Notes under the pieces: generated by a model
Seen by the model: the letters and a program-made list of their open reading frames with translations, nothing else
The model's database searches: none
What the model was told of the DNA's origin: nothing
In this document: piece by piece, positions 13,357-59,154 of the stretch
How positions within the stretch are numbered: position 1 is the stretch's first letter
Layout: every line of letters begins with the position of its first letter
Program-made: the position numbers and the translations under genes
Source: Spirosoma foliorum
Lineage (GTDB): Bacteria > Bacteroidota > Bacteroidia > Cytophagales > Spirosomataceae
DNA: 64,000 bases
Assembly: GCF_014117325.1 (NCBI RefSeq)
Contig: NZ_CP059732.1
Location: forward strand, 7,019,001-7,083,000
Direction: 5' to 3'

Positions 13357-13367
13357 AGCCCTTTATC

Positions 13368-15949: not shown

Positions 15950-15952
15950 TTT

Positions 15953-16030
15953 TGAATGATTGACTGATTGACTGATTGAATAGCAAAGAAGCGATTTATT
16001 CAACCAGTCAATCACCCAGTCATTCAATCA
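15953..16030. repeat. Imperfect inverted repeat of TGATTGAC-type words between mlaE and mlaF
   Basis: Left arm TGAATGATTGACTGATTGAC... (15953-15981) and a complementary right arm (about 15998-16030, ending CAGTCATTCAATCA) enclose a short loop. The arms are made of tandem four-base-shifted words. No T-run is present. It occupies the whole spacer of what should be one operon, so it may attenuate or stabilise the mRNA rather than end it. Confidence 0.8.
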
Positions 16031-36181: not shown

Positions 36182-36269
36182 ATGAGTGGATGAGTGAATG
36201 AGCGATTGAGTGACTAAAAAATGTAGCGAGAAATAATTCGCTCAATCACTCATCCACTCATTCACTCAT
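36182..36269. repeat. Inverted repeat of GAGTGAATGA-type words after secDF
   Basis: Left arm ATGAGTGGATGAGTGAATGA... (36182-36213) and right arm (36238-36269) are nearly perfect reverse complements over 32 bases; the loop is AT-rich. Same class as the mlaE/mlaF spacer: low-complexity words specific to this place. Confidence 0.88.
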
Positions 36270-37955: not shown

Positions 37956-38753
37956 ATGAATGGACAGGAATTATTCGGATATGCTTCAGCTCTGGTAGTA
38001 GGCTTAGTGATCGGTCTGGCTGGGGGTGGAGGTTCTATTCTGACCATACCCATTTTTGTCTATATTTTCAGTATTCCTCCCATTCTGGCAACGACCTATT
38101 CACTGTTTGTTGTAGGGTCGACTTCATTGGTAGGATCAATCAATCATATCTGGAAAAAGCAGGTTGACTTAAATGTTACCGCTGCGTTTGCACTACCTTC
38201 GTTCATCTCTGTCTACTTAAGCCGCCGATTTCTGGTTCCTGCTCTACCAGACCCGTTATTCCAATTTGAAAGATTCCAACTATCGAAGAGCGACGCCATT
38301 TTATACTTCTTCGCAATTGTTATGGTAATTGCTGCTAGAGCCATGATTCGTAGTGATCGCCCGGAGCAAGGTGAAGCTGCCGACGGGCGCCCACGCTATG
38401 GCAGTCTGGCCCTAGATGGGCTGGCGGTGGGCTTACTGACAGGGACTATTGGCGCAGGTGGTGGATTTTTGATTGTACCAATGCTAGTCCTGATGGCTGG
38501 CTTGCCAATCCATCGGGCCGTAGCGACTTCTGTTTTGATTATTGCCGTTAATTCGTTCGTTGGTTTTTTAGGTGATATTCATCATACAGGCTTAAACTGG
38601 AATTTTCTGCTGCCCTTTACGGGTTTATCCATCATCGGGATTTTTGCGGGAATGTATTTAGCCCGCTTCGTAGCCCCTGACCGACTAAAAAAAGGATTTG
38701 GCTGGTTTGTGTTAGTGGTTGCGCTATATATGATTAGCCGGGAAGTAATGTAA
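37956..38753 (+). CDS. TauE/SafE-family sulfite exporter
   Basis: A 265-residue membrane protein with about eight hydrophobic helices in two related halves (VGLVIGLAGGGGSILTIPIF and VGLLTGTIGAGGGFLIVPML). The glycine-rich helix pairs are the family signature; members export sulfite or organosulfonates. The next gene is a persulfide dioxygenase-rhodanese protein, so together they likely detoxify sulfide via sulfite, as in cst-type operons. A TAGTTTTG box (37941-37948) lies eight bases before the ATG; if real, the mRNA would be nearly leaderless. The stop codon is inside a palindrome. Confidence 0.9.
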   Translation: MNGQELFGYASALVVGLVIGLAGGGGSILTIPIFVYIFSIPPILATTYSLFVVGSTSLVGSINHIWKKQVDLNVTAAFALPSFISVYLSRRFLVPALPDPLFQFERFQLSKSDAILYFFAIVMVIAARAMIRSDRPEQGEAADGRPRYGSLALDGLAVGLLTGTIGAGGGFLIVPMLVLMAGLPIHRAVATSVLIIAVNSFVGFLGDIHHTGLNWNFLLPFTGLSIIGIFAGMYLARFVAPDRLKKGFGWFVLVVALYMISREVM

Positions 38754-38808
38754 CGCGGGTGGAAACCCGCGATTTTAATCAGAAGCTGCGGGTTTCCACC
38801 CGCGCTAC
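38750..38808. repeat. Inverted pair of GCGGGTGGAAACCCGC palindromes holding the tauE-like stop codon
   Basis: GTAACGCGGGTGGAAACCCGC (38750-38770) contains the TAA stop at 38751-38753. Its inverted copy is 38788-38808 (GCGGGTTTCCACCCGCGCTAC). Each copy is itself a hairpin and the two pair with one another. The same core is found after pdhB. Confidence 0.88.
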
Positions 38809-38813
38809 ACAAC

Positions 38814-40217
38814 ATGATCATCGAACAACTATACACGGGCTGTCTGGCTCAGGGAGCTTATTATATCGAAAGTAACGGGGAAGCCGCCATCATTGACCCA
38901 CTTCGGGAAACGACGCCTTATATCCGAAAAGCGGAAAAAGCGGTTGCCCGAATCAAATACGTTTTTGAGACACACTTCCATGCCGATTTCGTTTCGGGAC
39001 ATATTGATTTAGCCAAGAAAACAGGGGCTACCATCGTGTATGGCCCCAATGCAAACACAAGTTATGAGGCTTATCATGCGCAGGATGGCGAAACCTTTTC
39101 GCTAGGCGACGTGACCATAAAAGTGCTGCACACGCCTGGCCATACACAGGAATCCACAACCTATTTGCTCATCGACGAAACGGGAAAAGACCACGCTATT
39201 TTCACCGGCGACACGCTTTTCATTGGCGATGTAGGGCGTCCAGATCTGGCCATTAAAGGCGATCTGACCGAGCGCGATCTTGCCGGAATGCTCTACGATA
39301 GCCTGCATACGAAAATTATACCCCTTGCTGATGACGTGATTGTCTACCCAGCTCACGGCGCGGGTTCGGCTTGCGGGAAGAATATGAGCAAGGAAACAAC
39401 CGATAAACTCGGCAATCAGAAGCGTTTCAATTATGCCCTTCGCGCTAAATCGAAGGAAGAGTTTATTGAAAAAGTCCTCGATGGACTAACCACGGCTCCA
39501 GCGTACTTTGCCGAAAACGCCCGGCTCAATAAAGAAGGTTACGAATCGATTGATCGTGTTATGCAACGGGGTAGTCAAGCACTTTCGCCCGATGCCTTCG
39601 AAACAGCGGTTAACGAAACGAGCGCGCTGATTTTAGACGTTCGTGATGCCGCAGACTTTGCGAAGGGATTTATTCCCAACTCAATCAACATTGGTCTGAA
39701 TGGCCAGTTTGCACCCTGGGCTGGCGCGTTGATCCCTGATTTAACCCAACCTATTGCACTTGTTACTCCCACAGATCAGGAGAGCGAAACTGTGCTGCGA
39801 CTAGCCCGCGTTGGTTACGATAACTGCATAGGTTTTCTGAACGGCGGATTCGATTCCTGGAAAGAATCAGGCAAAGAAATCGACACCATTGAATCCATTT
39901 CAGCCGAGGAGTTTGCGCAACGCTGGCAGCAAAACCCTGCCATGCAAATTGTGGATGTACGCAAGCCTGTTGAATTTGCTACAGAACACGTTAAGGATGC
40001 TGAAAATCTGCCGTTAGACAATTTAAACGATCATATGGCTGCTATCGGCCGTACGGAGCCGGTTTATGTACATTGTGCCGGTGGCTACCGGTCGATGGTC
40101 GCCAACTCAATCCTGAAAGCGCGCGGCTTCGATAATGTCGTGAACGTAGAAGGCGGGATGGGGGCTATCAAAAAAACAAGCGTACCGATTGTAGTCGATA
40201 CGCCTGTTTCTCATTAA
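38814..40217 (+). CDS. Persulfide dioxygenase-rhodanese fusion (CstB/ETHE1-like)
   Basis: A 467-residue cytoplasmic protein. The N-terminal metallo-beta-lactamase fold carries ETHFHADFVSGH (His54, His56, Asp58, His63), HTPGHTQES and FTGDTLFIGDVGRPDL, which is the ETHE1 type non-heme iron site. Two rhodanese domains follow: the first (about 255-350) lacks a clear active Cys, the second (about 365-465) has VHCAGGYRS with the sulfur-carrying Cys. This is the layout of CstB, which oxidises persulfide to sulfite and thiosulfate. It is next to the sulfite exporter gene, a fitting pair. Confidence 0.93.
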   Translation: MIIEQLYTGCLAQGAYYIESNGEAAIIDPLRETTPYIRKAEKAVARIKYVFETHFHADFVSGHIDLAKKTGATIVYGPNANTSYEAYHAQDGETFSLGDVTIKVLHTPGHTQESTTYLLIDETGKDHAIFTGDTLFIGDVGRPDLAIKGDLTERDLAGMLYDSLHTKIIPLADDVIVYPAHGAGSACGKNMSKETTDKLGNQKRFNYALRAKSKEEFIEKVLDGLTTAPAYFAENARLNKEGYESIDRVMQRGSQALSPDAFETAVNETSALILDVRDAADFAKGFIPNSINIGLNGQFAPWAGALIPDLTQPIALVTPTDQESETVLRLARVGYDNCIGFLNGGFDSWKESGKEIDTIESISAEEFAQRWQQNPAMQIVDVRKPVEFATEHVKDAENLPLDNLNDHMAAIGRTEPVYVHCAGGYRSMVANSILKARGFDNVVNVEGGMGAIKKTSVPIVVDTPVSH

Positions 40218-40505
40218 TAGGTGCTTTAGTTAGTAATTCTTCACGAGTATTAATTGTATTGTTAGACTGAAGTCAAGTGCCTACCTTGACCTTGTTTGTT
40301 TGAATTCTTAATAGATGGCATAGAAAGAGGATAAAGAATAAGCTAAAATCAACAAATTGCTTGACAAAGTAGGTTACAACAAAAGAACAGGAGCGCAAGT
40401 ATGCCATTAGTCAGAATTGTCGTTACGTAATTTTTATTGAATGGCAGTCTACAGTCGAAGAATAAGCGTAACATTTACCATAAATCTTGGTCAACGTTTA
40501 GATTA

Positions 40506-41339
40506 ATGCATACTTGCCGAACGCGTACTCTTATTGAGGAAGTACCTACCGATGGGCACAGTCCCATGAAGTTCCTATGCGATGATGGCAACCTGTATTA
40601 CTGTAAGTATAGAATTCGGTCAAACGCTATTGAACTGGATTTTTTGGCTTATGAAGTAATCAGCCATACGATATTACGTACCCTTAATCTACCAACACCT
40701 GATGTCGCACTGGTGGAAGTACAGGCAGGATCGTATCGCCCGGATCAATTACTTGCGAATCGTCGTTTTATAAAACCGGGCATTATTTGCTTTGGCTCTC
40801 GCGCCCTATCCCATGCTGATTTGGTTCGCCAGACAGAAGCCATCTGTTCAACCCGTGCTTTTAAACGTTTACTGAACCCAACCGACCTGATTCGTCTGGC
40901 CGTGTTTGACCTTTGGACAGACAATATTGATCGGGGCCGAGCATTCGAGGGCGGGTATAATTACAATCTGCTTCGTGTACCTCATGAAGGCAAGATTCAG
41001 TTTGTAGCGTTTGATAACGCCTTTACATTCGGGGGTGAAAATGGTCTTCGCATTTTCAATCCAGACTGGCCATTGCTACCTCAAAATCGTCTGTTTAATA
41101 GCCCCTATTACAAAGCGGTTGTGAAACATATTACACCAAGCCGACGTTTCACAGTGGCCAACGATTGTCTATCTTTGTGCTATGAACGGGGAAAACAAGC
41201 TATATATACTGCATTTGCGAGCTTACCGCCTTCTTGGGGAACACCACCATCGTTGCGGGCACGAATGGTCGATTTCTTACTGAACGATCAGAGACGAATT
41301 GCTATTCAGACACTCCTTAATCAGTCCATACCCTTTTGA
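40506..41339 (+). CDS. HipA-like kinase
   Basis: A 277-residue protein from the ATG at 40506; an in-frame TTG at 40437 would add 23 residues of low quality. The N-lobe has MKFLCDDGNLYYCKYR with an ATP-binding Lys. The catalytic loop is FDLWTDNIDRG and the metal site FVAFDNAFTF. These match the stand-alone HipA-like kinase family (HipA_2), which lacks the HipA N-terminal domain. Usual neighbours of this family are DUF3037 genes; here the next gene is a different 289-residue protein 13 bases downstream, an apparent operon. Substrate unknown; HipA itself phosphorylates glutamyl-tRNA synthetase. Confidence 0.78.
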   Translation: MHTCRTRTLIEEVPTDGHSPMKFLCDDGNLYYCKYRIRSNAIELDFLAYEVISHTILRTLNLPTPDVALVEVQAGSYRPDQLLANRRFIKPGIICFGSRALSHADLVRQTEAICSTRAFKRLLNPTDLIRLAVFDLWTDNIDRGRAFEGGYNYNLLRVPHEGKIQFVAFDNAFTFGGENGLRIFNPDWPLLPQNRLFNSPYYKAVVKHITPSRRFTVANDCLSLCYERGKQAIYTAFASLPPSWGTPPSLRARMVDFLLNDQRRIAIQTLLNQSIPF

Positions 41340-41352
41340 TTGACCGTTCATT

Positions 41353-42222
41353 ATGAATACGTTCATTACGCCTTTATTTGTACAGACTAACCCGCTGTCG
41401 CTTGAAAAAATCGTCTTTGGGCTCTTGGGCGTGTCGGAGCAGGCCGTCTATTTTCATACGTCCGATCATAAACTATCCGTCGCTGAGCAATTGCTTGGGA
41501 AGCCGGTTGCCCAGTTCATCAAGAATAGCCTGAGCAGCTTGCGTGAGACAGTGAAGCAACACAACAAAGCGTTTAAACAGGAGATATTTGGTAAAGCACT
41601 ATCAGCATTCAACGCATCGTATATTAATACATTAAGTCAATACAGTAACGGACTTCTCCAATTTGGCGAACCAATGCCCCTTGCTGGTGGCCTATCGAGA
41701 ACACAGTTCGTTGATTTGTATGAAAAGTTTGTTGGAGAACCCTACAATCCAGCCGCTAGTGGGCGCGGTGCCTTTGCGCGGCTTGTCAAAAAAACACTTG
41801 ATGTGCCAGGTTTAGATCAAAAGGCTGACATTTATTATCCGTTGAAACCGGGCAAAATCAAAGGTTTGCTTAAACCAACCAATGTAACGCTGCTTACTAC
41901 GCATGGTGTCCTGATCGTTTATCAACAAATCGACTTTACTAATACAGAGGCTGTTGTAGCGAATAACCTGTATGAATATGAAGCGGTAGCTGACGTACTG
42001 AATTCTTACTCAAAAGCTAATTTTAACCGACCTGGTCAATTCAAGATAGTTGCTGAAACTCCCCCTATTCTGGCACCTCAGCATAAACAATTCGAGACAA
42101 TAAAAGAGATCAAAAAAAGCATTTTTTCTGTTATCACACCTCAACAATTGGCCGAAGAGGCACGACTTATTGCGTCAAATGGTCATGTAAAAGCGTCGGT
42201 AATTTTAGAAGAGGAAAAATAG
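41353..42222 (+). CDS. Unknown protein paired with a HipA-like kinase
   Basis: A 289-residue soluble protein without signal peptide or membrane helix. It begins MNTFITPLFVQTNPLSLEKI, has a helical middle (SLRETVKQHNKAFKQ), a GGLSRTQFVDLYEKFVG segment and a C-terminal beta/helix region ending ASVILEEEK. It sits 13 bases after the HipA-like kinase gene and before a near-perfect bidirectional terminator, so the pair is an isolated two-gene unit. It does not resemble DUF3037, the normal partner, as far as I can judge. Function unknown; regulator or substrate of the kinase is possible. Confidence 0.6.
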   Translation: MNTFITPLFVQTNPLSLEKIVFGLLGVSEQAVYFHTSDHKLSVAEQLLGKPVAQFIKNSLSSLRETVKQHNKAFKQEIFGKALSAFNASYINTLSQYSNGLLQFGEPMPLAGGLSRTQFVDLYEKFVGEPYNPAASGRGAFARLVKKTLDVPGLDQKADIYYPLKPGKIKGLLKPTNVTLLTTHGVLIVYQQIDFTNTEAVVANNLYEYEAVADVLNSYSKANFNRPGQFKIVAETPPILAPQHKQFETIKEIKKSIFSVITPQQLAEEARLIASNGHVKASVILEEEK

Positions 42223-42239
42223 AAGCTTGGGTCTTTAAT

Positions 42240-42288
42240 AAACTGAATGGCCTAACGTCAAATCATTTGACGTTAGGCCATTCAGTTT
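42240..42288. terminator. Near-perfect 24 bp palindrome, bidirectional terminator
   Basis: Arms 42240-42263 and 42265-42288 are exact reverse complements over 24 bases around a single central C. AAACTGAATGG begins and CCATTCAGTTT ends it, with T-rich sequence following. Placed between convergent genes, it likely ends both transcripts; the absence of a loop makes cruciform formation possible. Confidence 0.85.
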
Positions 42289-42321
42289 ATATTTTTACTT
42301 CATGGAATATGCTCTAAATAT

Positions 42322-42630
42322 TCAATCAGTGAGCGTGACATATTCAACTTCTTGGACAACGTATTGCTTAAGTCGATTGCTTAATGATGAGGGCGTTACA
42401 AGCTCAATTTTACGATGCAGAGAATCCTCAAAAAAGAAAGCTAAGTGCATTAGATTCTTAAATGACGCTTGCCCGATTCCATATTCAACCAATAAATCAA
42501 TATCACTATCAGGACGCTGTTCGTCCCGAACAAACGATCCGAACAAGCCAATCTTTTCAACGCCGAACGCTCTAATCTGTGCCCGATTCCGTCGTATAAA
42601 TTGAAGGATTATCTGCTTATTCAGTTCCAT
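42322..42630 (-). CDS. MNT-type minimal nucleotidyltransferase, without HEPN partner
   Basis: A 102-residue protein of the minimal nucleotidyltransferase (MNT, polymerase beta) fold. The active site is IGLFGSFVRDEQRPDSDIDLLVEY, with GSxxR and the DxD metal pair. Its relatives are usually the antitoxin of MNT-HEPN toxin-antitoxin pairs, where they AMPylate the HEPN ribonuclease. Here no HEPN gene is adjacent: downstream is only the terminator and upstream the M16 peptidase start region is on the same strand. It may be a solo remnant or act in trans. Confidence 0.88.
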   Translation of the reverse strand: MELNKQIILQFIRRNRAQIRAFGVEKIGLFGSFVRDEQRPDSDIDLLVEYGIGQASFKNLMHLAFFFEDSLHRKIELVTPSSLSNRLKQYVVQEVEYVTLTD

Positions 42631-42686
42631 AATTTACGGATCTATAATTAACAAAGGTCGCAAAAAACTAATTAACCTCACATGTA

Positions 42687-45548
42687 CTACTTCTTCTCCG
42701 GCATCAGCACAAGTCGAATGTAATTCGAGCCAAAATACTGATTGGCAGCCGCCTTCGTGCTTTCAACCGTTACTTTGTTCAGTTGCTCGCTTTCATGCAG
42801 GACTTCGTCGGGAGCATCGCCGTTGTAATACTGATTCTGGAGGTAGCCGAGCCAGAACTGGTTATCTTTCAACTGCACTTCGGTTTCCCGGCGAGTTTCG
42901 GCCTTGAATTTAGCGATGTCGGCTGGGAGCGCGCCTTTCTGTTTTAAATCGTTAATCAATTCCTGCGTTTTGGCAATGAGCTTATCAACGTTTTCGGGGG
43001 CGCAACCGAAGTTGATGCGGAAGGTATAACGGGGCACCGGATATTTAGCGTAAGCTGCGTTGGCACCAACACCGTAAACACCACTTTCCTCTTCCCGAAG
43101 CTTTTCAATCAATTTGATTTCAAGCACTTCGGCCAGTGCGTCCAACTGGGTTGCGGTTTCCGGCGACCAGGTGATGTCGCCTGTGTACACCAGTTGTACG
43201 GATGCCTTCGGGTCAAGTCCTTTATAAACGGTTTTGCTAACTTCACCTTTCGGTGCGCGAATGCCCAGATCCTTAAACTTCTCTGCCTTATCGCTTGCGG
43301 GTAAACCACCGAGGTATTTTTCGACCAACGGCTTTAACTGATCTTCCTTGAAATTACCGACGAAATAGAACGTAAAATCGCCCGCATTGGCAAAACGCTC
43401 CTGGTAAATTTGCAACGCACGGTCAAGATCAATTTTATCTAAATCTTCTGGTTTAAGTGGTAATCGACGGGGATTGTGATTGCCGAGTGTAACCGAGACT
43501 GTATCCTGAAATACGCCTTGCGGTGTTGGTGTATTGATCCGATTTTGTAACGCACTTCGTTGGTTCGACAGAAAGCCCTTGACAACATCGGCATCTTTAC
43601 GCGGTTGGGTGAAATAGCTGTAAAGCAATTGTAAAGCGGTCTCCAGATCTTTCGGAGCTGCGCTACCGTTGATACCTTCGCTCAATTCGCCCACATACGG
43701 AAACACGTTCACCTGTTTTCCGGACAAGAATTTACCCAGTTGAATCTGATTGTAAGCACCCGTACCGCCCATAGCCGTAAGGGTAGACGAAAACCGAGCC
43801 GACTGAAAATCCTTCAGGTCATAGAGCGAAGTACCGCCGAAACTGCTGGCCGAAAACAGAATCTGGTCATTCTTAAAATCTGTTGGTTTCAAGATCACCC
43901 GAACGCCATTTTTGAGTGTCCATTCTGTTACGCCGATGTCGGCAACTTTCTTTTCATTGACAACGGGCGAGCCGGTTGGTTGCGTAGCCAGCAGTGGGCT
44001 ATCAATGGTTTTGTCTTCATAAGCGGTCAAGCCTTTTCCGGCATCATCGACGTAACTCAGAATTTGTGCTTCCGTTGGGAGTTTAGCTTTGTCTTTTTCG
44101 GGAGCCATGACAATAACTGCCCGGTTATCGTTGTGGATGAATTGATCAACCAGCGCATTTACTTCGGCCAGTTTGATACCGTCCTGCTCTTTTTTCAGGA
44201 AATCATAATAGAACTCAATACTGGTGTATGGTTCTTTGTCCGTAAAATTCTGAACGTATTCGTTTACATAATTCACCGACCGGGTTTTGTTCCGTTCGCT
44301 GTATGCCTGCTCTACGTTGGTCATGAATTCCTGCTTCGCACGCGCCAATTCGGTAGGTGTAAAACCGAATTGTTTCACCCGCGCGTTCTCATCCAAAACG
44401 GCCCGAATGGCTTTTTCGACATTTCCCTCCTTAGCCACAGCAATAGACGTAAACGCATCCAGATTACCCAGAAAATCGCTATAATTACTATAGCCACCTA
44501 AAAACGGCGGATCAGCACGTTGGGTTAGTTCCTGAATTCGATTGCCCAGCATGGTGTTGAACAAGCCACGCTTGATGCTCTCGCGCAGGTCATTCAGTGT
44601 TTTCTCTTTGATTTCAGGTCGTTTGTAAATCACCTGCACCACCGTGTTAGGTTGTTCAGGATCAGTCACAATAACCACCTTCGTGTCTTTGTGCGCGGGA
44701 ATCTCGTACTCGGTGCGTGGTTTCGGATTTTTCACAGTAGGAATTCGTCCGAATTTTTCGCGAATAATACCTTCTACCTGCTTTATATCGAAATCACCTA
44801 CGGCGATAACGGCCATCAGGTCAGGGCGATACCAGTCTTTATAATATTGCCGTAGCACTTCGGGCTTAAATGTCGTCAACACCTGCTCCGTGCCGATGGG
44901 CAGGCGTTTTGAGTACTGCGAATTATTCAGCAAAAGTGGGAAATACTTGTCGCGCATCCGCTGACCAGCGCCACGCCCGAGTCGCCGTTCTTCCAGAATG
45001 ACACCCCGCTCTTTATCAACTTCCGTTGGGTCGATGGTAGCGTTATGCGCCCAATCTTCCAGAATCTGAAATGCTTTCGAAAACACATTGGCCGAATCTG
45101 TTGGTACAGGCAATTGATAAACCGTTTCGTCGAAACCCGTATACGCATTCAAATCAGCGCCAAAGCGAACACCCGCCGATTGCAGAAAATTGACCAGTTC
45201 ATTCTTTGGAAAATTCTTGGTGCCGTTAAACTCCATGTGTTCCATAAAGTGCGCCAATCCCTGTTGATTATCAGTCTCCAATACCGACCCTGCCCGAATA
45301 ACCAATCGCAATTCAGCGCGATTTTTCGGCTCAACATTTTTGCGGATGTAATACGTCAGCCCGTTAGGTAGTTTGCCTACTTTAACTGCCGGATCGAGTG
45401 GAATAAGGGCATTAAGACTAGGAGAAACAGCTTGTGAAGCAGGCTTCGGAGTAGGTTTGGCAACTGTTGTCTTAGATTTAGGAATCGGTTGCGCCACTAT
45501 CAACGTAGCGCTCATGAACAAACTCAGTGAGAGTGGAAAACGTACCAT
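42687..45548 (-). CDS. M16-family zinc metallopeptidase (PqqL-like)
   Basis: A 953-residue exported peptidase. A signal peptide ends near LIVAQ (about residue 20), followed by a Pro/Lys/Ser linker. The inverted zinc motif HxxEH is HFMEH at His100, Glu103 and His104 in AGSVLETDNQQGLAHFMEH-type context; the distal Glu is likely in the ERGVILEE segment near 180. Four M16 domains are expected from the length (two active/inactive halves). Bacteroidota have many such proteins in the periplasm for oligopeptide degradation. Monocistronic. Confidence 0.92.
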   Translation of the reverse strand: MVRFPLSLSLFMSATLIVAQPIPKSKTTVAKPTPKPASQAVSPSLNALIPLDPAVKVGKLPNGLTYYIRKNVEPKNRAELRLVIRAGSVLETDNQQGLAHFMEHMEFNGTKNFPKNELVNFLQSAGVRFGADLNAYTGFDETVYQLPVPTDSANVFSKAFQILEDWAHNATIDPTEVDKERGVILEERRLGRGAGQRMRDKYFPLLLNNSQYSKRLPIGTEQVLTTFKPEVLRQYYKDWYRPDLMAVIAVGDFDIKQVEGIIREKFGRIPTVKNPKPRTEYEIPAHKDTKVVIVTDPEQPNTVVQVIYKRPEIKEKTLNDLRESIKRGLFNTMLGNRIQELTQRADPPFLGGYSNYSDFLGNLDAFTSIAVAKEGNVEKAIRAVLDENARVKQFGFTPTELARAKQEFMTNVEQAYSERNKTRSVNYVNEYVQNFTDKEPYTSIEFYYDFLKKEQDGIKLAEVNALVDQFIHNDNRAVIVMAPEKDKAKLPTEAQILSYVDDAGKGLTAYEDKTIDSPLLATQPTGSPVVNEKKVADIGVTEWTLKNGVRVILKPTDFKNDQILFSASSFGGTSLYDLKDFQSARFSSTLTAMGGTGAYNQIQLGKFLSGKQVNVFPYVGELSEGINGSAAPKDLETALQLLYSYFTQPRKDADVVKGFLSNQRSALQNRINTPTPQGVFQDTVSVTLGNHNPRRLPLKPEDLDKIDLDRALQIYQERFANAGDFTFYFVGNFKEDQLKPLVEKYLGGLPASDKAEKFKDLGIRAPKGEVSKTVYKGLDPKASVQLVYTGDITWSPETATQLDALAEVLEIKLIEKLREEESGVYGVGANAAYAKYPVPRYTFRINFGCAPENVDKLIAKTQELINDLKQKGALPADIAKFKAETRRETEVQLKDNQFWLGYLQNQYYNGDAPDEVLHESEQLNKVTVESTKAAANQYFGSNYIRLVLMPEKK

Positions 45549-45621
45549 TTGGTCGTTTGAATTAGGTTATGATTTTGGAAACGAATGTACACAACAATAA
45601 CGATTGGAGAAGGCGAATCGT

Positions 45622-46017
45622 TTAATGCTTCCAGATGAGGAGAATCGTAACAGCTAACGAAGCAATGACTGAGAACCAACAGATAGCGATGACCCAACGG
45701 GTTGGAATTTCCCACATGGGCGCGTGAAGCATCTCTGTTTCCTCATCGACTTCTACGGTGCCGTAGAAATTTCGTGTACAAAAGTCATCCCAGTCCTCAT
45801 AATCAACGAATTGGGCGAGGGTATCCAGAAAAGAAGACGAAATAACAGTCGATGATTGCCAGAAGATCTGTAACTCTTGTGCATCGACAACTCGGTAGGT
45901 ATGTTTATAAATAAGCTCACTCAATTGCATAAAGTCGCGGAAACGCCAATGGGACGATTGTTCCCAGCGCAAGACGCGCTCGATCTGCTGTTTGAGGTTA
46001 TTCGTATGCCGATTCAC
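45622..46017 (-). CDS. Hypothetical tail-anchored membrane protein
   Basis: A 131-residue protein starting at GTG 46017 (MNRHTNNLKQQIERVL). The first 100 residues are hydrophilic with many Trp, Phe and acidic residues; residues about 107-128 (WVIAICWFSVIASLAVTILLIW) form a C-terminal membrane helix. No family recognised. Next to the nitrate island but separated by a palindrome. Confidence 0.6.
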   Translation of the reverse strand: MNRHTNNLKQQIERVLRWEQSSHWRFRDFMQLSELIYKHTYRVVDAQELQIFWQSSTVISSSFLDTLAQFVDYEDWDDFCTRNFYGTVEVDEETEMLHAPMWEIPTRWVIAICWFSVIASLAVTILLIWKH

Positions 46018-46042
46018 ACAGTAATACTACTGATTTTTCAGT

Positions 46043-46136
46043 AAAAAAATGTATAATGAATACTGTAAAATGTAGAATCATAGGCGGGCAACACGCTGTA
46101 ATTATGCATTTTACATTATTCATTATACATTTTTTT
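46043..46136. repeat. 32 bp inverted repeat covering the end of the nitrate-reductase-associated gene
   Basis: Arms 46043-46074 and 46105-46136 pair over 32 bases with two mismatches (AAAAAAATGTATAATGAAT...). The right arm encodes, on the minus strand, the last residues KKMYNE and the TAA stop (46116-46118) of the neighbouring gene. Words such as ATGTATAATGAAT repeat within the arm. Confidence 0.9.
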
Positions 46137-46604
46137 ATCCTCTAAAAACTCCCGAATTGCTCTCGGGAAATTTGCGCCTTCGTGGCCGGATCGACTTAGT
46201 TTCACCAGGGCAAATCGCTGTAAAACATCGAGTTGCAGCCATTGTTGAATTGTGATGGGGTTGCACTCCCACTCCAGTGCTTTCTGTAGAACCTCATTGG
46301 GTACTTCGCCTAAACACTCCCAACTGGCATCAACCTCGCCCAGATTACTTACCTGATGATGGCATCGGATCTGGACAAGATTGATCAGATCAAGTCGATA
46401 TTGAGCAATTTCGGCAGGTGTATAACAGGGTTGCGTTGCTAATCGAGCTTTGTCATCAACGGTAAGTTTCACCCATTCAGGGAGCTTTAATTTGATGCCG
46501 CACGTATCCAGTTTGTAGCGAACGACCATCGGAATGCACCGAAGCGTTTCGACAAAGTCGCTCTCAAAAGCGAAGAAAATAGGAGCTATAGCAACTGGTT
46601 TCAT
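46116..46604 (-). CDS. Nitrate reductase associated protein
   Basis: A 162-residue cytoplasmic protein. FAFESDFVETLRCIPMVVRYKLD, CGIKLKLPEWVKL and the C-terminal ALVKLSRSGHEGANFPRAI-type segment agree with the nitrate reductase associated protein family (Nitr_red_assoc) found next to assimilatory nitrate reductases in cyanobacteria and Bacteroidota. Role not established; a maturation or regulation function is likely. The last residues KKMYNE and the stop are in the palindrome arm. It lies eight bases after the rubredoxin-fusion gene, thus in its operon. Confidence 0.88.
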   Translation of the reverse strand: MKPVAIAPIFFAFESDFVETLRCIPMVVRYKLDTCGIKLKLPEWVKLTVDDKARLATQPCYTPAEIAQYRLDLINLVQIRCHHQVSNLGEVDASWECLGEVPNEVLQKALEWECNPITIQQWLQLDVLQRFALVKLSRSGHEGANFPRAIREFLEDKKMYNE

Positions 46605-46612
46605 AGGCTATT

Positions 46613-48070: not shown

Positions 48071-48075
48071 AGGTT

Positions 48076-48162
48076 AATGATTGACTGATTGAGTTGTTGA
48101 ATGACAGAATAGAGTATGCGTCAGCCTATTCAATAATTCAATCATTCACTAATTCAATCATT
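48076..48162. repeat. Imperfect inverted repeat encoding the C-terminus of the nitrate reductase fusion
   Basis: Left arm 48076-48111 and right arm 48127-48162 pair over 36 bases with about a quarter mismatched. The right arm, read on the minus strand, encodes MIELVND and the TGA stop of the nitrate reductase fusion. The loop contains ATGCGTCAGCC, the complement of the GGCTGACGCAT core seen at 2001-2011. Confidence 0.8.
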
Positions 48163-51100
48163 GATAAGAGTATACTCCGCACCTCCGGTCGACACGAGCC
48201 ACAACCCGTTCCGGCACCCGTTTTCTGGCAGAGCTGCTGAAAATCGGTGCAACCCGCCTGAATCGCTCGTTCCAGATTTCCCTGACCTACCGTATTGCAG
48301 GAGCAGACGAGTTTGCCTTCTACTGGATCAACTTTTTTGCTGGCTCGCAGGAGTTGAAGGCGCTTATCCGACAGTTCGATACCATTGGCAATCAGGTCGC
48401 GGAATTCGGCAAATTCGTTTTTGTCGCCGACCAGAATAGCGCCGACAAGTTTATCGTTGTGAACGATGCACTTTTTGTAATACCGTTTCGACTTGTCGAT
48501 AAAGACGATCTCTTCAAAATTGGCTCCTTGTCCCGCAGGCACTTCGCTGATACCGATACTGCACAGGTGCAAGCCTTCCATTTTCAGAATATTCATGGCA
48601 AGGCTGCCTCGATAAGGTTGCGAAATATCGCCCGCCAAGAAACGAGCGGCTGTCTCGGCCTGTTGTTCGGCGGCTAGCGTAACACCCCACATTTGGCCGT
48701 TCCATTGAGCAACTTCGCCAGCCGCAAAAATATCAGGATCAGAGGTTTGCAAATAATCGTTGACTACAACACCCCGGTTGCAGGCAAGTCCGGCAGCACG
48801 GGCGAGTTCGATGTTCGGCTCGGTTCCGATAGCCATTACAACGACCTGACAATCCAGCTTCCGGCCCGATTTCAGTTGAACGCCTTCCAGTCGATCAGTT
48901 CCGGCAAACGTTTGAATTTCTTCGTTGAAATAAACATCGATGCCGCGATCCAATAGCTCCAGATACAATAATTCGCTGGCCAGTGGGTCAAGTTGGCGCT
49001 CCATAAAACGACCTGACCGATGAATCAGCGAAACGCGAACACCAAGTTGACGTAAGGAAGCGGCCAGTTCCAAACCCAATAAGCCACCACCCACCACGAC
49101 GGCCTGTGGTGAATCGCCGTTCAGAAAGGGCATGAGCGAATCAGCGTCAAGTCGCGAACGCATGTTGAAAATACCGGGCAGCTTCGGTACACCTTTTGGC
49201 ATAAATGCGCGGCTACCCATTCCTAGCATCAGTTTGTCGTACGAATGCTCCGTACCATTTGTATCGACGGCAACTTTAGCGTTTCGGTCGATATGGGCAA
49301 TACCGACACCTTTATGAACTGTGATGTTTGCTTCGGCAAATTGATCTTCTCGGAGTTTGACAAGCTGCTCCCATGTCTGCTCGCCACTAATATAATCGGG
49401 CAACAAAACCCTGTTGTAGAAGGGATAAATCTCTTTGGAGAAGACGTGTATTTCATCCTCAGAATTTAGGTTCCGATACGCATTAATAAAACCCAATCCA
49501 GCTGAGCCCGCGCCAATGATAATTATCTTCTCAACGGGTTTCCGATACGGGACCACCTCAACCGCTGAGAACTTAAAATCGGGCTCTTTCGAACGCGGGT
49601 CAACGAGTGAGCTGGTCAGGTTATTGGCTCGATTGAGATTACTGTTCAAGAGCTTGCCCCAGTGCATCGGCAGAAAACAGAGACCTGGCCGCACATCGTC
49701 AGTCAGTTGGGCTTTCACGCGTACCTCACCACGCCGTCCCCGAACTTCAACTAGCTGACCGTCCTGAATTCCGCGTTCGTTGGCATCGTCGGGATGTATT
49801 TGCAGGAACGGTTGCGGAATGTGCTGATTCAGTTTCGCCACCCGACCTGTTTTGGTCATGGTGTGCCACTGGTCGCGGATACGACCAGTGGTTAAGACAA
49901 GCGGAAAGTCACTATCAGTTGGTTCAGAGGTATTTTCGTCGGGTACCGCGTGGATTTGGGCGCGACCATTGGGTGTATAAAATTGGTTATCTGTGAAGAG
50001 TCGCTTTGTGTCCGTCTCCCCTGTCCCCTGCTCCTTGCTCCTTGCTGGATACGGCCACTGAACGGTTTGTTTTTCTTTCAATAGATCATAGCTCACGCCC
50101 GTCACATCGACATTCGTTCCGGCGGTGAGTTGAACATATTCGTCGTAAATATCTGAGCTATTCGCGTAGGAAAAGGACGCTTCAAATCCCATTTTCTGAG
50201 CGAAACGCCAGATAATTTCGGCATCGGGCAGGGCTTCACCGGGGGCATCAAGCACTTTGGGCAAGTAAGCAATCCGGCGCTCGGCATTGGTCATAGTGCC
50301 TTCTTTTTCGAGCCAGGCAGCCGCGGGTAATACAACATCAGCAAACTGTACGGTATCAGCTCGATTCGAAACATCCTGAACTACTACGAAACGCGCATTT
50401 TTCAATGCTTTTTCGGCGGCATTCGCATCGGGCATACTCACCAATGGATTGGTGTTGATAATCCAGATGGCCTTTAATTGATCATTGGCCAACGCATCGA
50501 ACATCTCGGTGGCTGTTAGGCCCGGTTTAGCTGCAATCTTGACTGGGCTATTCCAGAAGGCTTCGACTTCGGCGCGGTGGACGGCATTGGTTACCTCGCG
50601 ATGAGCGGGTAATATATTGGCCAGGCCACCCGTTTCGCGACCACCCATTGCGTTGGGCTGGCCGGTTAAGGAAAATGGTCCGTTACCCGGTTTGCCAATC
50701 CGGCCCGTAATCAGGTGGAGATTAATCAATGACAGGTTCTTGTTCACGCCTACCACCGATTGATTCAGGCCCATTGTCCACAGTGACAGAAACCCTTTCG
50801 AGCGACCAATCCAATCTGCTGCGGTTTGAATCGCTTCGACTGAAACCCCACAAATCTCGGCAGCCTCTTCAACCGAGCGAAGCATTACCTGCTCACGGTA
50901 AGCCAGAAAGCCATCGGCATGATTGGTAATGAACTCGTTATCGATGTAGTTCTTCTCAATCAATAATCTCCCAATGGCGTTGTTCAGGACAATGTCGGTG
51001 CCGGGACGAAGAGGTAAATGCAAGTCAGAAGACCGGGCGGTATCGGTTCGGCGGGGGTCGACGCAAATGATTTTGACGTTTGGATTGGCCGCCTTGTGGG

Positions 51101-51656
51101 CTTCAATTCGACGCCAGAGAATGGGATGGCACCAGGCCGGATTTGCTCCTTCGACCAAGAAAAGATCAGCCTCTTCGATGTCATCGTAACAAACTGGCAC
51201 CGAATCTTCGCCCAGCGACAGTTTGTATCCCACAACCGCTGAACTCATACAAAGCCGAGAATTCGTATCGATGTTATTAGAGCCAATAAATCCCTTGATA
51301 AGCTTGTTGACCAGATAATACTCTTCGGTCAGGCACTGCCCCGACACATAAAACGCCACCGAGTCAGGGCCGTATTTCTTGATAAATGTTTTAAAAACAG
51401 CCGCTGTTCGTTCCAGAGCCGTATCCCAACTCACCCGTTGCATGGGCATGTTCCGATTGAATCGCATCTGCGGATACAGTAGCCGATCCGACTGGTCCAT
51501 GACCGTGTAATGCAGATTCATGCCCTTCGAGCACAGCATCCCTTTGTTTGACGGGTGCTGTTTATCGCCCTCAACGGTCAATCGTCCGTTCGGTTCCTGT
51601 TTGACTACGATTCCACAGCCAACACCACAATAGCAACAGGTCGTTTGATGAGTCAT
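48138..51656 (-). CDS. Assimilatory nitrate reductase fused to NAD(P)H-type FAD reductase and BFD [2Fe-2S] domain
   Basis: A 1172-residue cytoplasmic enzyme. Residues 1-700 are a molybdopterin nitrate reductase: 4Fe-4S cysteines in CCYCGVGC (7-14) and Cys42, the Mo-ligand Cys136 in TNSRLCMSSA, and a C-terminal cofactor domain (FPLVLTTGRIRDQWHTMTK). From about 707 an FAD/NAD oxidoreductase follows: IIIIGAGSAGLGF, VVVGGGLLGLELA, SDPDIFAAGE, like the NirB or NasB N-terminus. Cys1118, Cys1120, Cys1152 and Cys1155 form a BFD-type 2Fe-2S domain. Thus catalytic and electron-input subunits, separate in Klebsiella NasA/NasB, are one chain. The last seven residues come from a palindrome arm. First gene of the nitrate reductase operon after the transporter. 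Confidence 0.93.
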   Translation of the reverse strand: MTHQTTCCYCGVGCGIVVKQEPNGRLTVEGDKQHPSNKGMLCSKGMNLHYTVMDQSDRLLYPQMRFNRNMPMQRVSWDTALERTAAVFKTFIKKYGPDSVAFYVSGQCLTEEYYLVNKLIKGFIGSNNIDTNSRLCMSSAVVGYKLSLGEDSVPVCYDDIEEADLFLVEGANPAWCHPILWRRIEAHKAANPNVKIICVDPRRTDTARSSDLHLPLRPGTDIVLNNAIGRLLIEKNYIDNEFITNHADGFLAYREQVMLRSVEEAAEICGVSVEAIQTAADWIGRSKGFLSLWTMGLNQSVVGVNKNLSLINLHLITGRIGKPGNGPFSLTGQPNAMGGRETGGLANILPAHREVTNAVHRAEVEAFWNSPVKIAAKPGLTATEMFDALANDQLKAIWIINTNPLVSMPDANAAEKALKNARFVVVQDVSNRADTVQFADVVLPAAAWLEKEGTMTNAERRIAYLPKVLDAPGEALPDAEIIWRFAQKMGFEASFSYANSSDIYDEYVQLTAGTNVDVTGVSYDLLKEKQTVQWPYPARSKEQGTGETDTKRLFTDNQFYTPNGRAQIHAVPDENTSEPTDSDFPLVLTTGRIRDQWHTMTKTGRVAKLNQHIPQPFLQIHPDDANERGIQDGQLVEVRGRRGEVRVKAQLTDDVRPGLCFLPMHWGKLLNSNLNRANNLTSSLVDPRSKEPDFKFSAVEVVPYRKPVEKIIIIGAGSAGLGFINAYRNLNSEDEIHVFSKEIYPFYNRVLLPDYISGEQTWEQLVKLREDQFAEANITVHKGVGIAHIDRNAKVAVDTNGTEHSYDKLMLGMGSRAFMPKGVPKLPGIFNMRSRLDADSLMPFLNGDSPQAVVVGGGLLGLELAASLRQLGVRVSLIHRSGRFMERQLDPLASELLYLELLDRGIDVYFNEEIQTFAGTDRLEGVQLKSGRKLDCQVVVMAIGTEPNIELARAAGLACNRGVVVNDYLQTSDPDIFAAGEVAQWNGQMWGVTLAAEQQAETAARFLAGDISQPYRGSLAMNILKMEGLHLCSIGISEVPAGQGANFEEIVFIDKSKRYYKKCIVHNDKLVGAILVGDKNEFAEFRDLIANGIELSDKRLQLLRASKKVDPVEGKLVCSCNTVGQGNLERAIQAGCTDFQQLCQKTGAGTGCGSCRPEVRSILLSMIELVND

Positions 51657-51660
51657 GATT

Positions 51661-51760
51661 TTAGAGGGGAGGAAAGGGAGGAGGGGGAAGAAAGGGATAG
51701 AAGTGGAAATTATTTTTATTCCTTTCCTCCCTCTCTTCCCTTTCCTCCTTTCTCCCCTAA
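51661..51760. repeat. Purine/pyrimidine-rich inverted repeat between transporter and reductase
   Basis: The G/A-rich left arm (TTAGAGGGGAGGAAAGGGAG..., 51661-51697) and the C/T-rich right arm (51720-51760, ending CTCCCCTAA) form an imperfect hairpin that takes the whole spacer. The transporter's TAG stop (51757-51759 on the minus strand) lies in the arm, and the other arm ends four bases before the reductase ATG. Confidence 0.82.
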
Positions 51761-53058
51761 TTCAGTTGCAATTCAACATCTGCTGTTTCTACCACCGTTT
51801 CTTTGCTGAAATTCACCAGGAACAAAAGCAATCCGGCAGCGGCTACGATGCAGCCGATGTAGAGAAAAGCCTGCCCGTAGCTGATAGATTGTGACTTAAA
51901 CAAGAAGGCCATCAGCATACCACCGAGGTTTCCACCTGCCCCCACTACGCCCGAAATAACACCGACGGCTTTAGGATTTACAAAAGGCACAATGGCGTAG
52001 GTGCTTCCATTCGACATTTTCAGGAAAAGAGCAAAGGCAATCATCGACAGAATGGCCATCGGTAAGCTTCCGGCCTGAGCAAACAGCATAATGCCTGCCC
52101 CTTCCAACACCAACATACCTGCCAGCAGAACTCCTTTACCGCGCATACCGTATTTGTTCCCAACTTTATCGGCTACGATACCGCCGAGTGCACGGGCAAA
52201 AATGTTCATGCCACCGAAGAGCATTGCCCAGAAGCCTGCCTGTGTTTCTTCCAGTTTGAAATTGTCGAAGAAGTAGAGAGCTGCTACGCCGTCGAACGTG
52301 ATTTCCATACCGAAGCAGCATGCATAGGCCAATGCAAGCGCCCATACACGAATGTCAGCGCAGGCTGCCCAGAAACTTACTTTTTCTGCTTTGGCAACAG
52401 AATGCCCAATATCACTGTAGTTGCCAGCGGGAGTATCTTTCGTAAAGCGGTAATAAACAAAGGCCATCACAAGCATAAACACGCCCGGCACAAGCATAGC
52501 CAGTCGCCACGCTTCGGGCTTGGTGTAGCCGAACCCAACAATAGTTGCCATAATGACGGGCATGGCTAATTGTGTAATGCCACCGCCAAGATTACCCCAA
52601 CCACCTGCTACCGCATTGGCCGTGCCTTTGATTTTTGGCGCAAACATCATCGATGTATGAAACTGTGTGATCACGAATGAAGCCCCAATCACGCCAATGG
52701 CCAGCCGGAACAGCAGGAAAGTCGTGTAATCGTGGGCCAGACCAACGAACATAACGGGCAACGACCCCAGCACTAGCAAGGCCGTGTACGTTTTACGTGG
52801 CCCCCAGGTATCGCACAACCGACCGATAACCAGTCGGGCCAGAATGGTAGCCGATACGGCGGCAATGATGGTATTACCAACCTGTGGTTTCGTCAGGCCC
52901 AGATCGGCCCGGATAGCAGGCATCAACGGAGCGAGGCCGAACCAGCCAAAGAAACAGACAAAGAAAGTAAGCCACGTAATGTGAAAAGTTTGCATCTGAA
53001 TACCTTTCACACTGAAGATATTGAGCTTCTGAAGCGGTTTATTCGTATCGAAATTCAT
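51757..53058 (-). CDS. NarK-type nitrate/nitrite MFS transporter
   Basis: A 433-residue 12-helix permease of the major facilitator superfamily. Signature elements: FFVCFFGWFGLAPLMPAI in helix 1, GRLCDTWGPRKTY after helix 2, and the nitrate-signature-like AGGWGNLGGGITQ in helix 5 with the second GAGGNLGGMLMA in helix 11. Those two Gly-rich elements are typical of NasA/NrtP nitrate porters. Same operon direction as the reductase genes. Confidence 0.94.
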   Translation of the reverse strand: MNFDTNKPLQKLNIFSVKGIQMQTFHITWLTFFVCFFGWFGLAPLMPAIRADLGLTKPQVGNTIIAAVSATILARLVIGRLCDTWGPRKTYTALLVLGSLPVMFVGLAHDYTTFLLFRLAIGVIGASFVITQFHTSMMFAPKIKGTANAVAGGWGNLGGGITQLAMPVIMATIVGFGYTKPEAWRLAMLVPGVFMLVMAFVYYRFTKDTPAGNYSDIGHSVAKAEKVSFWAACADIRVWALALAYACCFGMEITFDGVAALYFFDNFKLEETQAGFWAMLFGGMNIFARALGGIVADKVGNKYGMRGKGVLLAGMLVLEGAGIMLFAQAGSLPMAILSMIAFALFLKMSNGSTYAIVPFVNPKAVGVISGVVGAGGNLGGMLMAFLFKSQSISYGQAFLYIGCIVAAAGLLLFLVNFSKETVVETADVELQLN

Positions 53059-53102
53059 GGTCGAATGTGTTTAGAAAACAGGTATATGATTGATTGGGAG
53101 GT

Positions 53103-54632
53103 CTATTTTTGAGCTGGCTTGGCAGCCAGAAAATCGGGCCGAATGTTGATCATCAGGTACGCCCAGGTACCCGTCTTGCTTTTCTGATCCATCGTGCCTT
53201 GTTTGGCGTATTCGAGGCTATTGGTTCCATTCATGATGGAATAGCCAAATTCTACGTTGGTGAACTTGTTCAGGGCGTAGTTGGCAATGAAGTCGTACTC
53301 CATACCGAGTTTGGCCGATAACAGCGTGCCTGCGGGTACATCGGCCATTTTGTTGTAAGTTGGTGCGGCTAGAGCCAAATAGTGAATATCCAGACCCGTT
53401 GTCAGGCGTTTGCCGGTGTATTTGAATTTCAGGAACGCATCCTGCACACCACCTGCTGGCGAGCCAGTTCCGGCGTAGAAATAATCCATTGAACCGCGGA
53501 ATTTGTGAGGAGTGCCATACAAGGGATCAAATCGGCTGGTTTCGCCTGATTGAATTGTCGTGGCATTATTCCCCGAAAGCACCTCATAACCAGGCCCGAA
53601 ACTCAGCAAGCCTTTCTGAATCATGAAGTTAGCTCCATAGTGATACGCGTTTTTGATCGTCAGTCCATCGCGATCTTTTCCGCTTTGCCCATACGCAAAA
53701 GCCTGCCACTGTACTTTCCCTTTCCCCAACTGACCAACTAGCATAGCGCCGTAGGTTACACGGGAATTCACACCGGCAACGTCATAACGTCTCCCATATA
53801 CGTAACCCTGCGAAGCACTACCCAAACTGTCGATCCGGTACTTCTGGAAATCGTCTTTGAAGAATAGGGCAGAGAATTTCGTGGTGTTAAACTTGCGCGT
53901 CAGATAGAGCATCTGAAACGATTTGAACTGCTGATTCTGGCCGTTCGTACTTAATGGCGTCAATAAAACAGGCGCTCCCCCTTTGCCCGACGTTGGCAGA
54001 AAACCAGCCGGAATAGCGAGTGTTATGTTTTGGGTAGACAGGGCCGACGCTGGTGCGTTACCAGCTGTGTAATAATCGCCCACTACGCCAAAGGCATCGG
54101 TATTCTGATTAAAGCCAACGCCTAAATCGAGGGCCCAACCTTTATGCTGCCCTTTCAGAATGGCCGCATCGAATCGGCGGCCCTGCTGAAGCCAGTCCAG
54201 ATTACCAATCAGCCGTGAATCATCGTAAACCATTTCCTGGCGACCGATTTTCAACGATAGATTCTGAATCGGTCTGAATTTGATCGTTGTATCGGCGCTG
54301 TTGGCGAGGGTAATATCGGCCCAGGCTTCATGTACCATCAGCCGGTTTCCATCGGCATTATTGATTGTGGCGGCATCCTGGCCCCACACCCGAATATCCT
54401 GAATGGACGTTTGAAACTGGATGCGCTCCCATTTGTAGCCGAATGTCAGTCGGGTTCGTTGCGAGGTAAAAAAGGCCGCTGGCGCATCTTTCGGAGCCAG
54501 ATTACCAACGCCATTTCGCAGTTCGGTTCGCGTACGCAACTGCCCCACGAGTGAGAATTGCGCGAATAGTGTTGACTGCGTTACCAGCAAACTAATGCCA
54601 GCATACAACAGTCGTTTGATTGTATAATTCAT
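53103..54632 (-). CDS. Alginate-export-family outer-membrane porin
   Basis: A 509-residue protein from the ATG at 54632 (a TTG at 54644 is in frame upstream). A signal peptide ends near STLFAQ. FSLVGQLRTRTELRNG, TSQRTRLTFGYKW, VYDDSRLIGNLDWLQQGRRFDA and many Tyr/Phe strands fit the alginate_exp beta-barrel family. In this operon it probably lets nitrate or nitrite through the outer membrane; family members elsewhere export alginate, so the substrate is inferred from context. Confidence 0.82.
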   Translation of the reverse strand: MNYTIKRLLYAGISLLVTQSTLFAQFSLVGQLRTRTELRNGVGNLAPKDAPAAFFTSQRTRLTFGYKWERIQFQTSIQDIRVWGQDAATINNADGNRLMVHEAWADITLANSADTTIKFRPIQNLSLKIGRQEMVYDDSRLIGNLDWLQQGRRFDAAILKGQHKGWALDLGVGFNQNTDAFGVVGDYYTAGNAPASALSTQNITLAIPAGFLPTSGKGGAPVLLTPLSTNGQNQQFKSFQMLYLTRKFNTTKFSALFFKDDFQKYRIDSLGSASQGYVYGRRYDVAGVNSRVTYGAMLVGQLGKGKVQWQAFAYGQSGKDRDGLTIKNAYHYGANFMIQKGLLSFGPGYEVLSGNNATTIQSGETSRFDPLYGTPHKFRGSMDYFYAGTGSPAGGVQDAFLKFKYTGKRLTTGLDIHYLALAAPTYNKMADVPAGTLLSAKLGMEYDFIANYALNKFTNVEFGYSIMNGTNSLEYAKQGTMDQKSKTGTWAYLMINIRPDFLAAKPAQK

Positions 54633-54798
54633 GAGAATAGGCAATCAGATAAAGAAGAAAATGAACGGTAGAGACAACAGGAAATCAACCTACCCAAGTG
54701 GGGTAAGGACGTGTAGAACAGACCAGAATGGTGACTTTGAAGGCGAGAAGATAAACGCCTGACGGACTATCGATTAGCTAGTCCCGCGCTGAGGCCAA
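54633..54798. other. Leader part of the 350-base gap upstream of the porin gene
   Basis: No gene is visible. Small hairpins TACCC/GGGTA around 54699-54713 and GGCG/CGCC around 54745-54764 occur in what would be the porin mRNA leader on the minus strand. No known riboswitch pattern recognised. The right-hand part of the gap is the small-RNA candidate. Confidence 0.4.
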
Positions 54799-54907
54799 TT
54801 TGCTTTACCTGTGATTTTTCATTTTCTTTGAAGTGTTTGTGTTTTTCGCATAGACAAATCCCGTTTAGCCGATCCAAAGGTGCCCCCACACCGGATCGGC
54901 TTTTTTT
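54799..54907 (+). ncRNA. Candidate small RNA with its own promoter and terminator
   Basis: On the plus strand, TTTG (54799-54802), a 20-base spacer and TTTCTTTG (54823-54830; one deviation from TAnnTTTG) make a plausible promoter. A GC-rich hairpin with a 7-base T-run ends at 54907. Nearby genes on the left are all on the minus strand, so this terminator serves no known gene. A transcript of about 70 bases, from roughly 54837, is predicted. No good small open frame is seen inside. Position between porin and cobA suggests a role in nitrate assimilation control. Confidence 0.45.
54867..54907 (+). terminator. Strong orphan plus-strand terminator
   Basis: AGCCGATCC (54867-54875) pairs with GGATCGGCT (54893-54901); an inner GGTG/CACC stem closes over CCCCCA. 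T-run 54901-54907. The minus strand has no T-run after the stem, so direction is plus only. Confidence 0.85.
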
Positions 54908-54999
54908 AGTTGTAGAGTTGTAAGGTTATAGAGTTATAGAGTATTTACACGCTGCAACTTTACAACTCTATAACTCCATAACCTTACAACTCTACAACT
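54908..54999. repeat. 35 bp inverted repeat encoding the end of cobA
   Basis: Arms 54908-54942 and 54965-54999 pair over 35 bases with one mismatch (AGTTGTAGAGTTGTAAGG...). The right arm on the minus strand encodes VVEL and the TAA stop of cobA (54984-54986). Repeated words TAGAGTT and TTGTA build the arm. Confidence 0.92.
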
Positions 55000-59051: not shown

Positions 59052-59154
59052 CGTTTTCGGTATTTGGTTTTCGGTTTACAGTGGCTGACGCGAGAGCAAC
59101 CTAGGATGCGTCAGCTACCGTAAACTGAAAACCAGATACCAAAAACCAAAAACG
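59052..59154. repeat. Inverted repeat with symmetrical GCTGACGC/GCGTCAGC core between nirD and the sensor kinase
   Basis: Arms CGTTTTCGGTATTTGG... (59052-59091) and ...CCAAAAACCAAAAACG (59108-59154) pair with an insertion in the right arm. GCTGACGC closes the left arm and GCGTCAGC opens the right one, separated by 16 bases containing CCTAGG. It is the most complete example of the shared core. Confidence 0.85.

Follow-up and report, generated by a model that had tools for sequence, protein, structure and literature searches.

Long hairpins after gene ends in a Spirosoma genome and its relatives, and their overlap with stop codons

Inverted repeats at gene ends in the window

The window is a stretch of 64,000 nucleotides of the Spirosoma foliorum genome (contig NZ_CP059732.1, positions 7,019,001 to 7,083,000). 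Its genes include murB, a TauE-like gene (TauE), a nitrate-reductase-associated gene (NR-associated), a nitrate reductase fusion (NR fusion), a transporter and cobA, all named as in an earlier note made from the letters alone. That note had pointed to palindromes in the spacers between genes, each with another arm sequence, and both observations hold. Requiring arms of at least 18, identity of at least 0.8 and a spacer of at most 60, we found 15 inverted repeats in the window against none in each of eight first-order Markov shuffles, and on re-measurement the arms are mutually different. Rfam gave no match in the window at gathering scores. The hairpins that figure below are the following, all without an assigned strand (.).

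1971..2056, strand., perfect 32-bp hairpin of GGTTTAC heptads; GGCTGACGC occupies 2002-2010
13298..13357, strand., perfect 23-bp hairpin (arms 100%) in the gap where murB meets its convergent neighbour; the arms differ in all 7 Spirosoma genomes compared
15952..16027, strand., TGATTGAC hairpin that takes up the space between two codirectional genes
36182..36261, strand., octad hairpin; octads of type AAAGAGTG or AATGAGTG occur at its orthologous sites
38749..38809, strand., GC-rich, REP-like hairpin after the TauE-like gene; arms 38749-38770 and 38788-38809, 95%
46042..46137, strand., heptad hairpin with an arm that encodes the last residues of NR-associated; arms 97%; another tail in each of the 3 Spirosoma orthologues read
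48076..48162, strand., TGATTGA-type hairpin where the NR fusion gene ends; its loop contains GGCTGACGC
51663..51753, strand., purine-rich hairpin between the transporter and NR fusion genes, falling short of the stop at 51757
54902..55005, strand., AGTTGTAG-octad hairpin; arm 54965-54999 writes the VVEL-stop of cobA; same family in S. arboris
59053..59146, strand., GGTTTAC-type hairpin, with GGCTGACGC (59083-59091) facing GCGTCAGC

Six named stops had been placed inside palindrome arms, and five of them do overlap an arm. Expressed as edge minus stop, with a negative value where the arm overlaps the stop, the re-measured distances are -5 for TauE (stop 38753), -3 for murB (13300), -22 for NR-associated (46116), -11 for the NR fusion (48138) and -16 for cobA (54984). 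The transporter stop at 51757 lies outside, at +8, since its arm ends at 51748, or at 51753 by another measurement. The further claim that palindromes supply C-terminal residues is borne out for NR-associated, where an arm encodes about six residues (KKMYNE), for cobA (VVEL) and for the NR fusion, where two or three residues come from arm 48128-48148, or up to seven with a looser 76% arm at 48126-48162. In TauE the arm covers the stop and the last codon; in murB it covers the stop only. The core of the TauE hairpin, CGCGGGTGGAAACCCGCG, recurs after another gene (g41) in a second genome, G004, and this hairpin therefore belongs to a dispersed family.

Placement relative to stops across the genome

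To sample the 8.85-Mb genome, 20-kb stretches were taken at 20 evenly spaced places and added to the window, 464 kb in all. With the minimum arm length of 18, this sample has 105 inverted repeats. Their edges are most frequent 0-5 nt after stops. A stop codon base lies within an arm in 15 of the 105 hairpins when any stop is counted (12 by the nearest stop only, 14 by the automatic gene set alone). For the 92 hairpin-stop pairs whose edge lies within 30 nt of the stop, 55 have their start 0-15 nt past it and 15 are on the gene side, compared with about 45 if they were spread evenly, so that in this sample stop overlap is depleted and not enriched. The earlier note had proposed a process that hits gene ends and creates new stops; the overlaps it was built on belong to the gene-side flank of a distribution whose peak is just after the stop. 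We thus rejected hairpins as makers of stops, and stop codons are not shown to be their target. These elements are 3'-end hairpins, some of which extend into the gene.

After leaving out 10 hairpins at stretch ends, the other 95 divide into 65 in tandem gaps, 26 in convergent gaps, 3 in divergent gaps and 1 inside a called gene, classes that are approximate because the gene caller missed some short genes (it called 38 genes in the window, where 50 ORFs were used for the stop-distance counts). Divergent gaps make up 18.6% of gap bases, and the probability of three or fewer of 95 hairpins falling there is 6e-6.

Protein C-termini in relatives

Orthologous C-termini separate the named genes into two kinds. 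The murB protein has identical end residues, or ends one residue later, in all seven Spirosoma genomes, next to seven different hairpins. At the 18 of 30 murB loci that were read (the other 12, on the other strand, were skipped) the C-terminus is likewise kept, and a hairpin is present in 13 of the 18. Five of six TauE orthologues that lack the window palindrome end at the same position, and in G004 a different hairpin appends QFKLKSH. For these two genes the same ends thus occur with another hairpin or with none, contrary to what the earlier note expected.

In cobA, the NR fusion and NR-associated, tail and stop vary together with the hairpin, as that note had anticipated. The cobA product of the window ends in FGVVEL and its S. 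arboris orthologue in FGVVEF, each with an AGTT-octad hairpin, and most other relatives have FSMAW, VSMAY and similar residues; the other relatives examined have no hairpin of the AGTTGTAG-octad family, or have a different hairpin. The C-terminus of the NR fusion differs among most species read, and in S. arboris (L039) both arms of a GAAAGAG hairpin are translated, giving a C-terminal extension of about 26 residues. Orthologues of the NR-associated gene diverge after REF. Three of the six named tails are therefore written by a palindrome, and these are concrete cases of protein ends reshaped by non-coding hairpins. As part of the explanation favoured below, we consider it somewhat probable that stops and C-terminal residues in arms are by-products, arising where a hairpin extends into the gene. 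The closest named relative found for the transporter protein is that of S. arboris, at 97% identity, and its near relatives are from Spirosoma species.

After the cobA hairpin, a stretch of about 100 bases (GCCGATCCGGTGTGGGGGCACC..., window 54730-54905, on the - strand side of cobA) is nearly identical across Spirosoma, Larkinella and Fibrisoma. Its conservation is far above neutral and it matches no Rfam family.

Kept sites and changing sequence

Within Spirosoma, there are 18 gene ends of the window at which two or more of the genomes that carry the gene have a hairpin, and the start positions of these hairpins differ by a median of 5 nt. Of 101 orthologous hairpin pairs, 16 align above the 99% null, and 26 of the 59 arms that reach 20 nt or more are perfect. 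The structure of the Spirosoma hairpins, as predicted from their arms, is kept. Fourfold-degenerate site (4-fold) identity among these genomes is 0.39-0.58; at the nitrate locus it is 0.73 with S. arboris. Hairpin pairs of the window fall under the neutral 5% in 2 of 39 cases, and the hairpins g01, g29, g30 and g42 are more alike than neutral. Because neutral sites are near saturation at such distances, low alignability is not proof of exchange, and we set aside fast turnover as a conclusion from Spirosoma alone.

Larkinella humicola, C7 and punicea are equidistant and much closer, with a 4-fold identity of 0.813-0.816 over 80 kb and 0.81-0.83 at the nitrate locus. In the transporter and NR fusion gaps, the hairpins of humicola and C7 are almost alike and that of punicea is different; punicea has no hairpin after cobA. 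The 80 kb surrounding murB contain 17 sites where one or more of the three species have a hairpin, and at 14 of these sites two or more do. Hairpins g035, g040, g055 and g058 are common to the species. At g014, C7 has a different arm family, and at g053 punicea has a purine hairpin in place of a terminator; the hairpin at g045 is collapsed in punicea, and the tip of g046 is missing in C7. A comparison of g046 between humicola and punicea gives one clear case of arms changed together. Site g021 was rejected as a replaced hairpin, as its alignment retains the old hairpin next to a second element, and the alignments of g041 in C7 and g043 in punicea are ambiguous.

Hairpin-bearing gaps also diverge more as wholes. 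The median identity of gaps with a hairpin is 0.72, and 18 of their 64 pairs fall under 0.60, roughly what random sequence gives, compared with 0.90 and 4 of 64 pairs for gaps without a hairpin (Mann-Whitney 3e-8, for pairs that are not independent and with convergent gaps counted twice). In the 16 alignable pairs of shared hairpins, 20 of 384 arm base pairs have changed compared with 42 of 280 loop sites; of the changed arm pairs 6 are compensated, 7 have become G-T and 7 are broken. Shared arms thus change less than loops, at about 3% vs 15%. The pattern indicates that arms change slowly and then wholesale, as far as alignments can tell. We discarded an automated comparison of hairpins, which placed 18 of 30 pairs below neutral and left 16 of 30 alignable, since variation in detected arm length makes it overstate change; what we say about change rests on whole gaps and on alignments read by eye. 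One part of the palindrome-making process proposed earlier is thereby supported to some extent, namely replacement, as seen in the swapped, collapsed and missing Larkinella hairpins and the more divergent hairpin gaps; the part that fails is the targeting of stops.

Periodic arms, density and transcription termination

Many arms are built from short repeated units. Among 80 arms of at least 24 nt, self-similarity at lags 7, 14, 8 and 16 is 0.365, 0.380, 0.326 and 0.317, compared with about 0.285 after shuffling, and recurrent units include TGATTGAC/TGAATGAG, AATGATG/ATGAATA, GGTTTAC/GGTATTC, AGTTGTAG, AGAGTTA/AGAGTGA, AAAGAGTG and GGAGGAAAGG. This periodic class comprises 29 of the 105 hairpins; some of the remaining ones are GC-rich and REP-like. 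Periodic hairpins start a median of 4 nt after the stop.

The simplest alternative is that these are ordinary transcription terminators sitting near stops, and nothing more. Their position after stops is what a terminator would have, 26 of the 95 classed hairpins lie in convergent gaps, some have A- and T-tracts (window 37874-37920; Larkinella g035 and g053), and a passage of PMC13155455 reports an enrichment of inverted repeats downstream of stops in bacteria of different phyla. Like intrinsic terminators, the hairpins here follow genes. Unlike them, the periodic class lies mostly between codirectional genes (23 tandem and 3 convergent, vs 42 and 23 for the rest; Fisher 0.04), 15 of 22 periodic hairpins end within 30 nt of the next start, and a T-run of at least 5 follows or ends 0 of 27 periodic hairpins and 6 of 59 others. 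The missing T-runs argue against canonical termination for the periodic class.

Density also counts against terminators alone. By one rule for all, there are 22.6 hairpins per 100 kb in this genome, 18.1 in six syntenic Spirosoma stretches, 12.5 at other Spirosoma loci, 17.3 in Larkinella and kin, 1.0 in Runella and 5.2 at other Bacteroidota loci, where the other Spirosoma, Larkinella, Runella and Bacteroidota values may be atypical because those sets are the flanks of one gene. On this evidence, we regard the terminator account as unlikely. Loss of the hairpin nuclease SbcD was considered as a cause of the high density. The best SbcD match in this genome scores 27 bits (G000:C1:3295839-3296087), below the cut-off of 77.65, and SbcD is above the cut-off in 10 of 19 genomes, several congeners among them. 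Hairpins per 100 kb number 20.0 in each of G004 and G009, which are without SbcD, and 11.7 in G011, which has it; these three relatives, the ones with both status and density available, are too few to judge this candidate cause.

A shared apical core and the question of copying

Most hairpins are without a common core, and a minority share GGCTGACGC. The core with its inverted copy 2-30 nt away occurs in 15 of 291 genomes of the order: in 12 of 46 in the own family and in 3 of 245 elsewhere, with one match each. There are 11 such pairs in this genome and 53, 65, 0 and 1 in four genomes of another genus, g9, and a reversed-core control gave one match in each of two genomes. Allowing one mismatch, the core is found in 9 of 123 hairpin loops of this genome, 11 of 79 in Larkinella and 7 of 75 in six Spirosoma, while permuted cores in the same loops average 0.2, 0.7 and 0.1 (maxima 2, 6 and 2).

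Two functions for the core were considered. Relative to the upstream gene, 14 cores are sense and 14 antisense (one mismatch allowed), and the 30 exact sites in this genome give 3 sense and 1 antisense; a strand-specific RNA loop signal was rejected for this absence of orientation bias, in a test diluted by hairpins that carry the core both ways. The 9-mer core was also considered as a DNA uptake sequence. It has 113 copies in this genome, compared with 54 for the reversed control, and 216 of 317 one-mismatch matches lie in coding sequence. Publications containing the core letters were, among the matches listed, unrelated by title.

Such a core could mark a mobile REP- or MITE-like hairpin family that inserts preferentially after genes, with the periodic hairpins and GGCTGACGC as signs of one superfamily. 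The concentration of the core pair in the own family fits this, as does the AGTTAAG family of Larkinella, for which each genome gives 83-90 matches; some are more than 90% identical, with up to 91% in the same genome. Of 20 members of this family fetched from Larkinella C7, 19 have a detected hairpin and 17 of these carry the core with at most one mismatch (13 exactly), though the query that selected them itself contained the core. Presence and absence is seen at hairpin 59053..59146, where the window gap is 109 nt vs 12 nt in S. arboris. Searches for copies point the other way. Only one of five hairpins searched has a close relative (more than 90% across nearly the whole hairpin) in the same genome: the C7 g014 hairpin, with 91% over 75 nt there and 94% over 69 nt in humicola (40 candidates scored per genome). 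For the two punicea nitrate-locus hairpins, punicea g053 and the window transporter hairpin, the same genome has no match above 77% that spans half or more of the hairpin; the punicea NR fusion hairpin has an 82% relative in the C7 genome (again 40 candidates scored per genome). The best other genome copy of the window TGATTGAC hairpin is 88% identical and the next 80%, and no shared termini or target duplications have been established. We hold a mobile superfamily to be possible but doubtful.

The four hairpins without a close same-genome relative argue against simple copying, and the one with such a relative argues against purely local formation; both copying and local formation may act. In the AGTTAAG family, arm similarity is 0.87 within an element and 0.91 to the nearest other element, which does not favour self-templating, in arms so repetitive that the comparison is not decisive.

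Further dispersed hairpin families follow genes elsewhere in this genome, with arms of the types GGAATGACA...GATTCCTCCTGACGTC and GACCCCGATGGGGTC...CTATAAACAT (sampled stretches L114, L116, L120 and L127).

Interpretation and relation to known systems

With moderate confidence, we favour the explanation that these are 3'-end hairpins selected for pairing, with interchangeable sequence, that are replaced or reshaped as wholes after genes. Long, near-perfect inverted repeats start a few nucleotides after the stop and often take up all the space before the next gene, and selection would maintain the folded structure rather than the sequence. Placement after genes and slowly changing arms suggest a role as folded RNA, where, judging by sequence features, the structure would probably protect the 3' end or slow ribosomes or polymerase. 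Single mutations that break pairing would be purged, so that a hairpin would change mainly as a whole, either when a member of a dispersed hairpin family is copied into its place or, by an alternative route, through fold-back template switching in which one arm is rewritten from the other. Against this explanation, hairpins compared in Spirosoma alone change no faster than neutral, and the compensated changes are only 6 of the 20 changed arm pairs. A bolder and rather improbable proposal is that Spirosoma, Larkinella and kin possess hairpin cassettes of their own, with a conserved apical core GGCTGACGCA and arms drawn from a limited alphabet of 7-8-nt units, exchanged wholesale at fixed post-gene sites by an undescribed hairpin-specific copying that rewrites C-termini too.

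Among the papers listed in literature searches, none dealt with these hairpins. REP/BIME/REPIN elements are, in passages of PMC3733652 and PMC12306157, likewise palindromes between genes and near stops, and GTAG REPs are reported there to give TAG stops to neighbouring ORFs. Unlike these, the hairpins here are long, have periodic arms and keep their site while their sequence varies, and most of those tested have few or no near-identical copies. REPs at most 15 nt from a stop are reported to lower translation (in a passage of PMC12306157), an effect that by analogy would be a close precedent for hairpin function here. Heptanucleotide direct repeats such as TAACTGA, described in PMC4679880 and present in some Bacteroidetes too, are also intergenic 7-nt units, some of which overlap stop codons; those repeats are direct and mostly precede start codons, whereas the window hairpins are inverted and follow stops. 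Template switching can make or repair a perfect stem in one event by copying arm from arm, as a passage of PMC8794818 reports for RNA genes; here it is a candidate explanation.

The hairpins offer a natural experiment on the origin and change of long perfect hairpins, with fixed sites, kept structure, exchanged sequence and relatives at useful distances. If a dedicated copying process does exist, it would represent a new kind of small genome element.
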